Positions 57,608 to 64,000 of a DNA stretch of 64,000 nucleotides are shown here, piece by piece; positions within the stretch are counted from its first letter, which is position 1, and the number at the start of each line of letters is the position of its first letter. Made by a program: the position numbers and the translations under genes. Where the stretch lies: contig MVQO01000214.1 of NCBI GenBank assembly GCA_002067585.1, positions 1-64,000 on the forward strand, in the 5' to 3' direction. Under the pieces are notes generated by a model. It did no database searches and was not told where the DNA came from. It saw only the letters and a program-made list of their open reading frames with translations. The DNA is from Syntrophorhabdus sp. PtaB.Bin027. Lineage in GTDB: Bacteria; Desulfobacterota; Syntrophorhabdia; Syntrophorhabdales; Syntrophorhabdaceae.

Positions 57608-57683
57608 GGGGCTGTAGCTCAGTTGGGAGAGCGCATGACTGGCAGTCATGAGGTCGAGGGTTCGACCCCCTTCAGCTCCACCA
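57608..57683 (+). tRNA. tRNA-Ala (anticodon GGC)
   Basis: The cloverleaf is complete: acceptor GGGGCTG/CAGCTCC with the alanine identity pair G3-U70, D arm GCTC/GAGC, anticodon stem CATGA/TCATG with loop CTGGCAG (anticodon GGC at 57641-57643), T arm GAGGG/CCCTT with loop TTCGACC, discriminator A and an encoded CCA at 57681-57683. An integrase gene ends 24 bases downstream on the other strand. Confidence 0.97.
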
Positions 57684-57706: not shown

Positions 57707-58780
57707 TCAGCCATTCTGAACAATCTCTAAATTGTGCACTTTTTGTGCAGTAGATTCTTGTGTGAGTCTTTCAGCAAGGATATCTACTGCTTTCACTTTA
57801 TGTGAAGGAGCAAGGTGAGCATATCTTAAAGTCATTGTGAGGGTTTTATGCCCAAGAAGCTCCTTAACTGTTGCCAAATCGACTCCAGCCATTACAAGGT
57901 GACTGGCAAAAGTGTGCCTTAAGTCGTGGAAATGAAAGTCCTTGATACCTGCTCTTCTGCAAGCCGAGGCAAAAGAATGTTTAATGTCTTGATATGGTTG
58001 ACCATTCCTGTTGTCATAGAATACAAATGGTACATCCAATCGTCTTGTCTGCCTCTGAAACATTTCCTGTAACGGCTCGTTGATAGGAACTTCTCTCCTC
58101 TCACCATTTTTAGTTATTTCGAGCAGTATAAATCCATGCTTCAAATCTACTTGATTCCAACAGAGATTTAGAATCTCTGCCTTTCTCATTCCAGTGTGTA
58201 AAGCTGTAAAAACAATGGGCTTTAAATGATTGTCACATGAATTGAGAAGTAGTTGGCATTCTTCTTTTGAAAGGAATCTGAGCCTCTTATTGTTTTCTTG
58301 CAGAAGCTTTACTTTTCTTATCCCTTTCAGCACACTCTCTTCAACCATGTTCCAATCGACTGCTTTGGTGAACATATGCTTCAGGGTTGCCAAGAACCGG
58401 TTAATCGTTGCAGGTTTGTTTCCCTTCTGCATCCTTTCAGTCTGGAACTGCTCCACAAGCATCGTGTTAAATCTTCTGAGAGGAAGGTTGCCAAACTTGT
58501 CAACTAACTGTTTTATAAGATATTTTTTGCCATTGAAACATCTTTGCCTTTCAGCCCAGACAAGATAGGCATCGGCAAGTTCCCTGAAAATATGGTTTTC
58601 AATCTTGTGTATCTCAGGTAGCTCTCCTTCCTTAACTTCCTTCCTACGATCAATCAGTTTTGATTCGGCATCTTTTATTTTAGACGAACCCGTAGATTCT
58701 CTGATGATCCTACCATCAGGGCCAGCATACCGAATCCAATAGATGTTGCCTCGTTTGTAAATTCCTTTTGTTTTAGCCAT
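57707..58780 (-). CDS. Tyrosine recombinase/phage-type integrase
   Basis: The 357-residue product has an N-terminal SAM-like core-binding domain and a catalytic domain with the residues R-H-R-H-Y: HTGMRKAEILNL, HDLRHTFASHLVMAG, LGHKTLTMTLRYAHL. The DUF-type AP2-like start (KGIYKRGNIYWIRYAGPDGR) is common in deltaproteobacterial islands. It lies beside the tRNA-Ala 3' end, the classic location of an integrase next to its attachment site. Confidence 0.95.
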   Translation of the reverse strand: MAKTKGIYKRGNIYWIRYAGPDGRIIRESTGSSKIKDAESKLIDRRKEVKEGELPEIHKIENHIFRELADAYLVWAERQRCFNGKKYLIKQLVDKFGNLPLRRFNTMLVEQFQTERMQKGNKPATINRFLATLKHMFTKAVDWNMVEESVLKGIRKVKLLQENNKRLRFLSKEECQLLLNSCDNHLKPIVFTALHTGMRKAEILNLCWNQVDLKHGFILLEITKNGERREVPINEPLQEMFQRQTRRLDVPFVFYDNRNGQPYQDIKHSFASACRRAGIKDFHFHDLRHTFASHLVMAGVDLATVKELLGHKTLTMTLRYAHLAPSHKVKAVDILAERLTQESTAQKVHNLEIVQNG

Positions 58781-58782
58781 AG

Positions 58783-58992
58783 TTACTGTTCACCTTCCTT
58801 TTTGTTTTGTCCTTGTAGTTCTGCTTCAATACGATCCAAAAGTAAACACAAAGTTTTTGATGGAGTTCTATCACCTCCTTCTAACATGTAGATGTAGTTC
58901 CCGGCAACACCAGTTAGTTTACCCAGGGCTGTCTGGGATAGCTTAAATTGTTTCCTCAAAGTCTTGATTCTTTCTGGTGTCCACGAACGCAT
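58783..58992 (-). CDS. Small helix-turn-helix repressor of the island
   Basis: The 69-residue product MRSWTPERIKTLRKQFKLSQ is an XRE-type HTH: LSQTALGKLTGVAGNYIYMLEGG. ATG 58992 is seven bases after a TATAAA box, so the message should be leaderless. A perfect palindrome lies in its own promoter. Its stop is two bases before the integrase start, so it and the integrase form an operon. Confidence 0.82.
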   Translation of the reverse strand: MRSWTPERIKTLRKQFKLSQTALGKLTGVAGNYIYMLEGGDRTPSKTLCLLLDRIEAELQGQNKKEGEQ

Positions 58993-58999
58993 AACATAC

Positions 59000-59028
59000 T
59001 TTATACATCTAACATTGTTAGAAGTCAA
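59000..59028 (-). promoter_or_regulatory. Promoter with internal operator for the HTH repressor
   Basis: On the minus strand TTGACT (59028-59023) and TATAAA (59005-59000) lie 17 bases apart, and the perfect palindrome TCTAACAATGTTAGA (59022-59008) fills the spacer. This suggests self-repression by the downstream HTH protein. Confidence 0.72.
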
Positions 59029-59117
59029 GTAAAAGAATGAAGTGCACAATTTGGTGCACAGTACCATCCAACATACTGATATCTTAAAACCTATTTTCCG
59101 TGGAACTTGATAAATTA

Positions 59118-59480
59118 TCAAGAGGCCTTCCCCCCTTTAAGCAGATTTAGGCCATTTTTTGATTGGCTAATTTCTGGTACACTATTCCGTTCAAGCCAAG
59201 CATCAATTGCACTCCTCTTAAAGAGTACCTTGCCAGATGTTGTACCATTTGACCTTTTACCCTGCTGGCTGGGGAGTTTAATGAAGGGTATCTCGTTGAG
59301 ATGGGTTCTCTCATATACCCAACTTTTGGAAACATGGAGATATTCAGATAGACTCTTAACATCCAGATATTCATTATCAGACGTATAGGATTGTTTGGAC
59401 AAAAGATGTCTCAGTCGTTTTTCAAGCTTATCGACAATGGAATCAATGTCTTGATCAGATAATTGAAAATCAATGTTCAT
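59118..59480 (-). CDS. Excisionase/AlpA-like winged-helix DNA-binding protein
   Basis: The 120-residue product begins at ATG 59480 with AGGAG ahead and has the MerR/Xis-like helix-turn-helix YLDVKSLSEYLHVSKSWVYE then VLFKRSAIDAWLERN. Such genes near integrases are recombination directionality factors or regulators. An unusual hairpin lies 24 bases upstream. Confidence 0.78.
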   Translation of the reverse strand: MNIDFQLSDQDIDSIVDKLEKRLRHLLSKQSYTSDNEYLDVKSLSEYLHVSKSWVYERTHLNEIPFIKLPSQQGKRSNGTTSGKVLFKRSAIDAWLERNSVPEISQSKNGLNLLKGGKAS

Positions 59481-59768: not shown

Positions 59769-60014
59769 CTAATCCAATCCTCTGGCCTTTTTCATGTACT
59801 CCTTATTGTAGAGATGAAAAGGGTAGAGGGTACATTCAAGATTTTTACAGTCCCAAGGTTCAGGATTTGTATAGTACCTTGTGCAGTCGTAACAGTGAGC
59901 CTTAACAGCTTCCCAAATAGTGAGATTTTCTCCTCTCAGATGTTTCAGTAATTTAGATTTTCCGTTTGCCTTTCTGCCGATTTCCTTTACTACTTTGATT
60001 CGATTCTCACTCAT
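59769..60014 (-). CDS. Small Cys-rich protein (island), paralogue of next gene
   Basis: The 81-residue product MSENRIKVVKEIGRKANGKS has a lysine-rich N-terminus and a C-terminal metal-binding-like pattern: AVKAHCYDCTRYY, then WDCKNLECTLYPFHLYNK. ATG 60014 follows GAGGGGG and overlaps the upstream gene by eight bases. The cysteine pattern recalls small proteins common in phage and mobile DNA, of unknown function. Confidence 0.72.
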   Translation of the reverse strand: MSENRIKVVKEIGRKANGKSKLLKHLRGENLTIWEAVKAHCYDCTRYYTNPEPWDCKNLECTLYPFHLYNKEYMKKARGLD

Positions 60015-60249
60015 GGTGTTCGGCCCCCTCACGTTTACTTTCCTTGTATGGCATGAACTGGTAGAGTGGACAGTCGGGTATTTCACAGTCACAAAGACCA
60101 TCCGTGTATCCGCCCATGCATTCGTAACAATTTGCCAGGACCGCCTCTTTCAGCGTTAACCTCTCACCTCTGCGGTGTCTTACGAGTTCACCTCTTCCTT
60201 TTGCCTTTTTCCCTATGCCACTATTGGATTTGATCTCATTCTTAATCAT
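60007..60249 (-). CDS. Small Cys-rich protein (island), paralogue of previous gene
   Basis: The 80-residue product MIKNEIKSNSGIGKKAKGRG has the same plan: VRHRRGERLTLKEAVLANCY, ECMGGYTDG, CDCEIPDCPLYQFMPYK. The start overlaps the upstream gene's stop by eight bases. Six or so conserved cysteines fit zinc or Fe-S binding. It is translationally coupled on both sides. Confidence 0.72.
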   Translation of the reverse strand: MIKNEIKSNSGIGKKAKGRGELVRHRRGERLTLKEAVLANCYECMGGYTDGLCDCEIPDCPLYQFMPYKESKREGAEHHE

Positions 60250-61801: not shown

Positions 61802-63040
61802 TCAAAAACCACACCGGCTGGCGGCGAGCCAACCTGGTAAGTTCAGAAACACATTGGCGGCGGGTGGGTAAATTTCTAATCGATACAAGCATTTGAGAGT
61901 ACGATGCCAGTATTGGTGATGTGACAAATAATGTCCCTCTATAGGATGCCTTACCGGGGCAGCACCTCCGTACAAGGTTTCCCTAGGCTTTTTCAGGGAT
62001 GTATCATAAAAGGGTATATAGAAACTATCAATCACACCAGAGTTATGCAGGGATATCGTTCGGTAGGCATCAACAGTTCTCTCGATACGTACACAAAATA
62101 TATCCTTAACAGATTCAAGTTGATAGTTATACCGGTCAAGCTCGTGACGAAGAACCGCTCAACCATGATTGATATCCGTAATGTTCTCCCGTACACAGGT
62201 TCGAATCAGTCTATCCTGTAACCAGCCGTAGGGTCGTTCAATCTTCCCTTTTGCCTGAGGAGAGAGCGCATAGGTAACTTTCACATTACAATCATCGAGC
62301 ACCTGCTTCCACTGTGGGGTTGACCCATCGGTAAGAGAAAAATGCTTTTGCCAGAACGAATCCCGTCCTCGTACAAAACGAAAAATAGAATGGGAATCCA
62401 CGTAGTAAGAGAAGGGCATCCCGTGTCGTAATATGACTGATTCGAGACTTGTAATATGTGCCCATGAAGTCTCTCGTTCAACGAATGCCGCATAGAGGAT
62501 AAACCGGCTGTAATCATCCAGTGAAGTAAGAAGATACCACTTCTTCTGTGCCGGAGGAGACCAGAGGTGGTGCGAGGCATCATGCTGGATGAGTTCGCCA
62601 ACTTATCGGGTCATAACTTCCCGGACATGGATGGCCTTGCGGGGATGCTTTCGATAGAATCCGTTCTTTTTGACCCGATCAATAATGGTGGGGAGGGAAA
62701 CCCGCTCGTGGTAGGTACTGTCCAGCCTGTCTTGGATGTAGCTATAGTTGTATCTTCGTATCGGAACATCGGGATCATCAATCAACGCTTTATCAACAGC
62801 GAGTTCTTCGAGGATGTGGCCCTCAATGAGAGGAGGGATACCCCTGGTTTTCTTATGCCTGGTGTAGGCAATGGAAAACCCCTCGGGGTCTTCCCGGCAT
62901 CTCTGCAAAAGTATAAAGAACCTGGATTTCCCCATACCCAGCATCTGCTGAATATAGATTTGGTCTATTTCATGGTGGATGTACCGCTCAATGAACTCTT
63001 TGACCTGATGATCAGAAAAACGTATGTGTACCTGTGTCAT
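61802..63040 (-). pseudogene. DDE transposase (integrase-core) with two in-frame stops
   Basis: One minus-strand frame of 413 codons from ATG 63040 to TGA 61802 encodes an HTH part (DHQVKEFIERYIHHEIDQ), LIQHDASHHLW and LTSLDDYSRFILY (DDE aspartates), YVDSHSIFRFVRGRDSFW, and PQAKGKIERPYGWLQDRL (the glutamate). It is cut by TAA at 62603-62605 and TGA at 62159-62161 but has no frameshift. It is closest to the ISNCY-like DDE transposases. Confidence 0.88.
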
Positions 63041-63070
63041 ACTCAAAAACCTCTTTATATGTTTTTGAGT
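63041..63070 (-). promoter_or_regulatory. Hairpin holding the transposase ribosome site in its loop
   Basis: ACTCAAAAAC (63041-63050) pairs with GTTTTTGAGT (63061-63070); the minus-strand loop is ATATAAAGAG with an AAAGAGG-like site, and the ATG at 63040 touches the stem. Confidence 0.6.
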
Positions 63071-63388
63071 AATCTGTACCCCAGGTGTCCACTTTTAAAT
63101 CTTAAATGACAATATACCGATACAGGTTGACATCTCAGTAAAAGGTGCTATATCAAAATAAGAGAACAGCATAATAGGACTCGCAATCGGTATTATCGAA
63201 ACTTTTAATGAAGGGCTGTGAATTTAATATGAAATTACTCACACTAAAGGTAATAAGGAAGATAAACAGGGAGGGCCGTATAAAGAGATGGCAATAGGAT
63301 TGTTCAGCCTGTCTTATAAGGCCCAAACCACGAAACAAAAGCACTTAGGTTTTATTGTTCTTTGACAATTGAAGAGAGGTAATCCTCT
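63071..63388. other. Intergenic region between two transposase remnants
   Basis: It holds ACCCCAGGTGTCCACTTTT at about 63079-63097, which resembles an insertion-sequence terminus. Otherwise no gene is visible. Confidence 0.35.
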
Positions 63389-64000
63389 TTATGCAACAAT
63401 GGAGAGGATTATTATCCACTTGCATTGTATGGTGGCGATTCCATCCAATTCATTCAGAGGGATGGTCGCCTGTCCTTTGAAAGAAGTATGGGACCTCAGG
63501 AAATTATAATGGGTAACAAACAGGATGACGAGAGCTATTGCACCGTTTAGCTGTTTAACCCATGTGATGGTTTCACATAATGCTTGAAGATCCTATTCAA
63601 CCATTCAATGAGCTGTTTGAATGTCTGGTAAGCTTCCGACTCGCGATCTAAGTTCTTAAACCCGATGACTTTCTTGTGGCAAATTAACACTTCTCTCCTT
63701 TCGCTGGAGAAGTGCATACCTACGTGGATGCCAACAGGGGGCGAAGGATTCCCGTTGGTCACGATGGCTATCGGCTGACTTTGATCTGCCGTCCTGATCG
63801 CCTCCTTCATGGCAATAATGCCGTGCACTGTCTCCCTGGTATCGACAAGATGATATGCGGTGATCTTCAGATTTTTTGAAGAGATGAAGAAGAAACATAG
63901 TGCTGTTTTCCCTCGATTTTGATATACACCACATCGCCAGCACTGATCTGATCGATTAGTTCTTTATGGTTCAGATTGAAGAATAACAGGAAAAACAGCT
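63389..64000 (-). pseudogene. Partial DDE transposase pseudogene, runs off window
   Basis: Minus-strand pieces in different frames give VVYIKIEGKQHYV, then AYHLVDTRETVHGIIAMKEA, IVTNGNPSPP, IGFKNLDRESEAYQTFKQLI, WLNRIFKHYVKPSHG, then ALVILFVTHYNFLRSHTSFK and ATIPLNELDGIATI, ending at TAA 63389. Frameshifts lie near 63900 and 63555. It is a different DDE family from its neighbour. Confidence 0.8.

Follow-up and report, generated by a model that had tools for sequence, protein, structure and literature searches.

A probable leaderless XRE autorepressor, and a possible integrase-based feedback, at the promoter of a tRNA-targeted integrase operon

How might an integrated mobile element set the dosage of its own integrase, and what part might be played by a perfect palindrome lying inside the predicted promoter of the integrase operon? 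This question is raised by a locus in a stretch of 64,000 nucleotides from Syntrophorhabdus sp. PtaB.Bin027 (contig MVQO01000214.1, positions 1 to 64,000; here called the window), where a small XRE regulator gene, xre, is followed by a tyrosine integrase gene, int (Table 1). Here, we propose that the XRE protein is a leaderless, or nearly leaderless, autorepressor that throttles its own integrase operon, and that the elements of this family carry privately matched operators, a reading that we hold with considerable confidence. Autorepression by the XRE protein is, in our judgement, very likely. We also consider whether the integrase itself might act at the same promoter.

Table 1. Features of the xre-int locus and its surroundings in the window, in order of position
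Feature	Position	Strand	Basis
tRNA-Ala (GGC), integration site, convergent with the integrase	57608..57683	plus	ARAGORN
attL core, anticodon arm of the tRNA (5-7-5)	57634..57650	unstranded	inferred from attR of three relatives
Tyrosine integrase, 357 aa, gene two of the putative operon	57707..58780	minus	Phage_integrase, E 4.8e-36
Arm-type pair TGCACA-N5-TGCACA, end of int (attL side)	57733..57749	minus	pattern and locus comparison
xre, 69-aa HTH_3 regulator, without Shine-Dalgarno sequence	58783..58992	minus	Pfam HTH_3, Shine-Dalgarno energy, structure model
Shine-Dalgarno sequence AAGGAAGGTGA of the integrase, within the xre tail	58790..58800	minus	duplex energy -8.2
-10 hexamer TATAAA	59000..59005	minus	sequence and locus comparison
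Operator-like perfect 15-bp palindrome TCTAACAATGTTAGA, filling the promoter spacer	59008..59022	unstranded	sequence, shuffles, locus comparison
-35 hexamer TTGACT	59023..59028	minus	sequence; same place in 12/12 related loci
Inverted arm-type pair TGTGCACCAAATTGTGCA upstream of the -35	59043..59060	minus	pattern and locus comparison
att mimic, 5-N7-5, CTTGA-TAATTTA-TCAAG	59106..59122	read on the minus strand; unstranded	arms resemble a tRNA-Ala anticodon stem; overlap differs
xis, excisionase-like HTH_17 protein, upstream of the operon	59118..59480	minus	HTH_17; excise domain TIGR01764 above cut-off

The sequence-only reading had described TTGACT, a spacer of 17 bp and TATAAA, followed by seven bases and an ATG. 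This is exact to the base, with correct coordinates; the minus strand had been left unmentioned. The seven bases are GTATGTT, the xre ATG lies at 58992-58990 (minus strand), and two bases separate the xre stop codon (58785-58783) from the integrase ATG (58780-58778), as had been claimed. The perfect palindrome said to lie between the two hexamers is likewise present in the 17-bp spacer. How unusual is it? The window has 9 odd palindromes with arms of at least 7, and 15 shuffles gave 1-9 of them (mean 4.3); the palindrome is thus unremarkable by itself. Only one of the 39 promoter-like sites of the window (score of at least 10/12, both strands), namely this one, has a spacer palindrome with an arm of at least 6, and for a spacer palindrome at this locus taken singly the shuffle p is 0.007. 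(A promoter scan that requires T as the sixth base of the -10 misses the xre promoter, whose -10 is TATAAA.) Taken singly, the arrangement has weak significance; with the twelve related loci, the case from sequence comparison becomes convincing.

Where do these relatives occur? A search with the single XRE protein gave matches in 5/395 genomes of the phylum, a profile search in 14 of 46 class genomes (E 1e-8), and a larger profile in 6/395 phylum genomes at E 1e-14, with the window's own genome included in each count. The profile search returned 24 matches, of which 12 weak ones (E above 1e-13) were set aside; nine of these twelve, inspected by eye, were classed as MqsA-like or other phage-type regulators. 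The 12 strong matches consist of 11 xre-int pairs and one solo gene (G401), and G047 was added from the phylum searches. In total, xre followed by a related integrase is found at twelve loci in 8 genomes, which are Syntrophales-like. The solo homologs G369, G401 and G294 were kept apart from the twelve-locus counts, and L043, L044 and L045, which share their upstream sequence with G396, G201 and G421, were treated as copies of these, each locus being counted once. Copies of related loci occur in a Syntrophus sp., a Syntrophaceae bacterium and a deltaproteobacterium. Searching the order of G047 (5 genomes) and that of G369 (11 genomes) yielded no further xre-int pairs. Among viral contigs no relatives of the XRE protein were found and relatives of the integrase had 53% identity or less; in plasmid and phage records no XRE match was better than E 9e-4.

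All twelve loci have a promoter score of 9-11/12 with the -10 ending 7-12 nt ahead of the xre start; shuffled upstream sequences reach a score of 9 in 6% of cases and of 10 in 1%, and 3 of the 75 other window ORFs reach 9. At the xre start, the best duplex of the preceding 20 nt with the anti-Shine-Dalgarno sequence ranges from +1.5 to -3.1 in 11/12 loci (-0.5 in the window), with a possible Shine-Dalgarno sequence (-6.1) in G421, and at the best integrase start from -8.2 to -13.6 (11 loci located; G201 left out). The leaderless start claimed in the sequence-only reading is thus better worded as leaderless or nearly so, as the short gap in 12/12 loci and the want of a usable Shine-Dalgarno sequence in 11/12 would predict; G201, G397a and G396, where the gap measures 10-11 nt, may have leaders a few bases long. 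Could transcription instead come from further upstream, with the palindrome as part of an RNA leader? The window xre frame is open upstream to -147, as such a reading would allow, but in 8/12 loci the xre frame is closed by a stop 6-36 nt ahead of the start, and both the missing Shine-Dalgarno sequence and a promoter positioned alike at every locus speak against it; we regard an RNA leader as highly improbable.

The palindrome itself recurs on a common plan, (N)AAC-N3-GTT(N), with at least 5 contiguous pairs in 9/12 loci; those of G397a and G397b are imperfect and G397d has none. Summed over the 12 loci, the contiguous arms come to 71; 5000 shuffles averaged 23.7 and never exceeded 38. The operator arms vary among elements, yet each arm co-varies with its partner and with the XRE recognition helix. 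With the centre set by the core alone, 30/36 outer pairs match; re-pairing the arms between loci 200,000 times gave at most 29. As for the helix, residue 32 is N where the operator reads GTTAG (window, G097, G047 and G396), E with GTTCA (G000:C219 and G397a), I with GTTTA (G201 and G397c), V with GTTAT or GTTTAT (G421 and G397b) and R with GTTAC (G423), the exception being the solo homolog G369, which has I with GTTATA. The full operator of C219 reads GTGAAC-TTA-GTTCAC. A partial Mantel comparison of operator with recognition helix, which omits G397d for its lack of AAC-N3-GTT, gives r 0.43 (p 0.004, n=11), dropping to r 0.27 (p 0.02) when G369 is added; since the remainder of the XRE protein shows a correlation with the operator as well (r 0.42), common descent is part of this signal. 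The G369 palindrome, ATATAAC-AAT-GTTATAT, is located downstream of the best -10. Solo G401 and G294, with no integrase after them, are without such a palindrome, and none was seen by eye at G342 and G412, which are integrase-linked but without xre.

The spacers differ even among elements of one genome, with two such elements in the genome of the window and four in G397. If every element carries a private operator fitted to its XRE helix, co-resident elements would not need to silence one another. Does the XRE protein have other targets? The sequence-only reading had proposed looking for further copies of the palindrome, and the window operator occurs once, at 0 mismatches, in the window's genome. 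Within the flanks of 11 elements, some of them short, no second operator with up to two changes was found other than one two-change site in G397b. This points to a dedicated autorepressor rather than to a master repressor acting at several promoters. The "self-regulated switch" put forward earlier is thereby retained in part, in that an operator-like palindrome lies inside the putative promoter of the xre-int operon, whereas the claim that the repressor would control its own exit finds no support, with a single exact operator site in the genome and flanks searched and with the excisionase-like gene outside the operon. The reach of evidence of this kind, drawn from sequence, is control of integrase dosage.

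What kind of regulator is the XRE protein? It scores 31.5 bits with Pfam HTH_3 (cut-off 23) and so belongs to the XRE / HTH_3 regulators. An MqsA- or HipB-type antitoxin was considered and rejected, the scores being below the curated NCBIfam cut-offs (TIGR03830, 31.4 vs 61.8; TIGR03070, 28.2 vs 71.65). The AlphaFold model (pLDDT 88.7) has four helices in a helical HTH fold and is nearest to C.Kpn2I and to DNA-bound P22 c2, the latter also ranking high in a profile search of solved sequences. The XRE protein might then be an activator, like the C proteins of restriction-modification systems, since it resembles C.Kpn2I in fold and small size and since C operons are, according to the available text of the C.Csp231I study, leaderless and bicistronic (PMC4824078). 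A single operator in the spacer of a near-consensus promoter, rather than two tandem boxes, argues against activation, which we consider very improbable indeed.

Under autorepression, xre and int would form one operon behind a near-consensus promoter of the sigma-70 type, with the mRNA 5' end at, or a few bases ahead of, the xre ATG, so that xre would be translated leaderless and int from its own Shine-Dalgarno sequence in the xre tail. A dimer of the 69-aa XRE protein would bind the spacer palindrome and keep RNA polymerase out. As polymerase would be excluded at the spacer, XRE would repress itself and the integrase jointly, a negative autoregulation of integrase dosage, and the match of operator to helix would make this repression specific to each element. 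Sequence and comparison show the promoter, the palindrome, the gene order, the co-variation of the two operator halves, the association of operator with helix and the missing Shine-Dalgarno sequence; from these we infer binding, repression, start site and private specificity.

Would the XRE protein be alone at this promoter? The sequence-only reading of the promoter region had overlooked integrase-type sites that adjoin it. Pairs of the form T[xx]ACA-N5-T[xx]ACA, with an 11-bp period, are found at the end of int in 12/12 loci, and an inverted TGT[..] pair, with a 12-bp period, lies upstream of the -35 in 10/12 loci by regular pattern and, in degenerate form recognised by eye, in G423 and G397c. 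The variable letters fall into classes (TC, AT and GC), and the class at the int end is the same as that on the promoter side in all 10 loci with regular pairs at both. A class-matched arm pair also lies about 100 bp inward of attR in G097, G047 and G000:C219. Two integrase residues sort with the class in 15/15 labelled loci, residue 17 (A or C vs R) and residue 27 (R vs Y, F or L); these rank first and fifth among all columns, and the structure prediction places them in strands 2 and 3 of the N-terminal sheet. The integrase model, of modest confidence (pLDDT 71.3), begins with a three-stranded sheet followed by a helix, which we take to be the fold of the arm-binding domains in lambda and Tn916 integrases. 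Columns 40, 54 and 66 sort with class too, so descent may account for part of the association, and columns 345-350 overlap the arm site itself. Outside the labelled set, the integrase of G369 fits the class rule and G412 has a mixed arm class. A viral contig, L081 (IMG/VR), carries an integrase of the same family at 53% identity, with GC-class arm sites, no xre upstream of the integrase and, by eye, a terminase-like gene downstream.

Further upstream lies the att mimic, 129-166 nt ahead of the xre start in most loci and 247 nt ahead in G000:C219, which looks like a decoy-like copy of the predicted target of the integrase. A whole-tRNA match upstream of xre put the element's own tRNA on top in 4/12 loci, and an anticodon-arm test was used instead. 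At 102/120 positions the mimic arms agree with the anticodon stem of the tRNA that the element occupies, against a permuted maximum of 101 in 100,000, with guessed bases in 2/12 cores; with those two cores removed and G306 added, the count is 96/110 (permuted maximum 94 in 200,000), as compared with 31/77 for the 7-nt overlap. The window's own mimic has the arms of the tRNA-Ala stem of its relative G396, not those of its host (tRNA arm, 57634-57650), and the G397d mimic mismatches its own tRNA. At G306, which is without xre, a mimic matching at 10/10 positions and an arm pair are retained, and it is possible that another regulator has replaced xre there; no mimic was found in the stretch searched at G369 and G412, both without xre. 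At this locus (L164), about 520 nt upstream of the integrase, the mimic and arm pair precede a promoter unlike that of xre, TTGACA-16-TATAAT (recognised by eye), which lies inside a longer inverted repeat.

As a bold yet testable extension, these predicted sites suggest a second feedback, in which the integrase too would bind the inverted arm pair and the mimic and regulate the operon, adding to XRE autorepression and not replacing it. The agreement of arm class between the two ends, its sorting with the integrase residues, the fidelity of the mimic arms to the occupied tRNA, and the persistence of mimic and arm pair at G306 all point this way; the ill-fitting mimic of G397d, the lack of one at G369 and G412 together with the mixed class of the latter, and the sorting of further integrase columns weigh against it. 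We put its chance just short of even, and any effect of the integrase on the promoter could run in either direction. The most economical reading of the mimic would be that of a non-recombining integrase-binding site retained for feedback. The whole picture, that of a tRNA-targeted, satellite-like family with two nested feedbacks at one promoter, XRE at its private operator and the integrase at the mimic, we advance more tentatively still.

Might the core-like copy be instead the attR of a 1.5-kb mobile unit consisting of xre and int? The core-like copies are directly oriented with inverted arm sites inside, as such a unit would require. Against this, xis homologs are kept in place just beyond the mimic in 7/8 loci examined, which makes the mimic internal to the element; attR, with the tRNA loop, lies 7-10 kb off in three elements; and the mimic arms are conserved while the overlaps differ. 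The small unit was accordingly rejected as the least probable of the readings considered here. The three bounded elements, G097:C42 (L016; 7.1 kb), G047:C84 (L019; 8.8 kb) and G000:C219 (L171; 9.8 kb), have tRNA repeats at their ends, and in each attR repeats the tRNA sequence as far as the anticodon loop.

In the window, attR was not found in the contig, hence the element may be decayed; it has an O-like replication protein. Two adjacent small cysteine-bearing proteins (59769-60014 and 60007-60249), paralogs of each other by appearance, matched no family in Pfam or PHROGs. To the right of the element, at 61900-63950, broken frames resemble, by eye, remnants of transposase genes.

How does this family compare with known systems? 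A literature search, with most subscription journals outside it, found nothing on att mimics at integrase promoters or on this xre-int family. The relatives G097 and G000:C219 resemble phage satellites of the PICI or P4 type. Like these, they carry int, xis, primase-type genes and the terminase small subunit in their 7.1 and 9.8 kb; the element of the window differs in that its attR was not found in the contig and that no terminase is among the window proteins scanned.

With the C operons of type II restriction-modification, as far as the available text on C.Csp231I describes them (PMC4824078), the locus shares a small XRE regulator, an effector gene in second place and a palindrome in the regulator's promoter. 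The xre-int sequence is compatible with a leaderless bicistronic mRNA like that of these operons. The C-protein operons have a restriction endonuclease downstream where here there is an integrase; they have two tandem operator boxes, whereas here one operator-like site was found in the flanks searched, inside the spacer; and C proteins activate and then repress, whereas repression alone is expected of xre-int. In mycobacteriophage BPs, with its integration-dependent immunity, the repressor and integrase genes are likewise adjacent and co-expressed from the repressor promoter, to judge from the available part of the study (PMC4557955). However, attP of BPs lies within the repressor gene and its repressor acts on several promoters, whereas here the att core is formed by the anticodon arm of the tRNA gene past int, and a single operator was found.

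If our reading is correct, the integrase dosage control of a mobile element is compressed into one 40-bp promoter. The family also offers natural matched variants, of XRE recognition helix with operator and of integrase N-terminal sheet with arm site, as test sets for DNA-binding specificity. Integrase autoregulation has been proposed where attL overlaps the integrase promoter, and the available text of that work predicts none for the convergent layout, of which two cases were tested and found not to be self-regulated (Panis et al. 2010; PMC2951348). The same text describes self-repression via attL at the promoter for KplE1 intS and, as cited there, for P4 int (PMC2951348), a precedent for the integrase-based feedback proposed here. 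As in those systems, predicted integrase-type sites adjoin the integrase operon promoter. Unlike in KplE1, attL here is at the 3' end of int and does not overlap the promoter, the loci are convergent, and the promoter-side sites are not attL but a mimic within the element, whose overlap does not match. If the mimic binds the integrase, a non-recombining copy of the attachment site would act as operator, and gene-order predictions of integrase autoregulation would need revising; if the nested feedbacks hold true, autoregulation would extend to loci where integrase and tRNA gene converge, a layout predicted to lack it.
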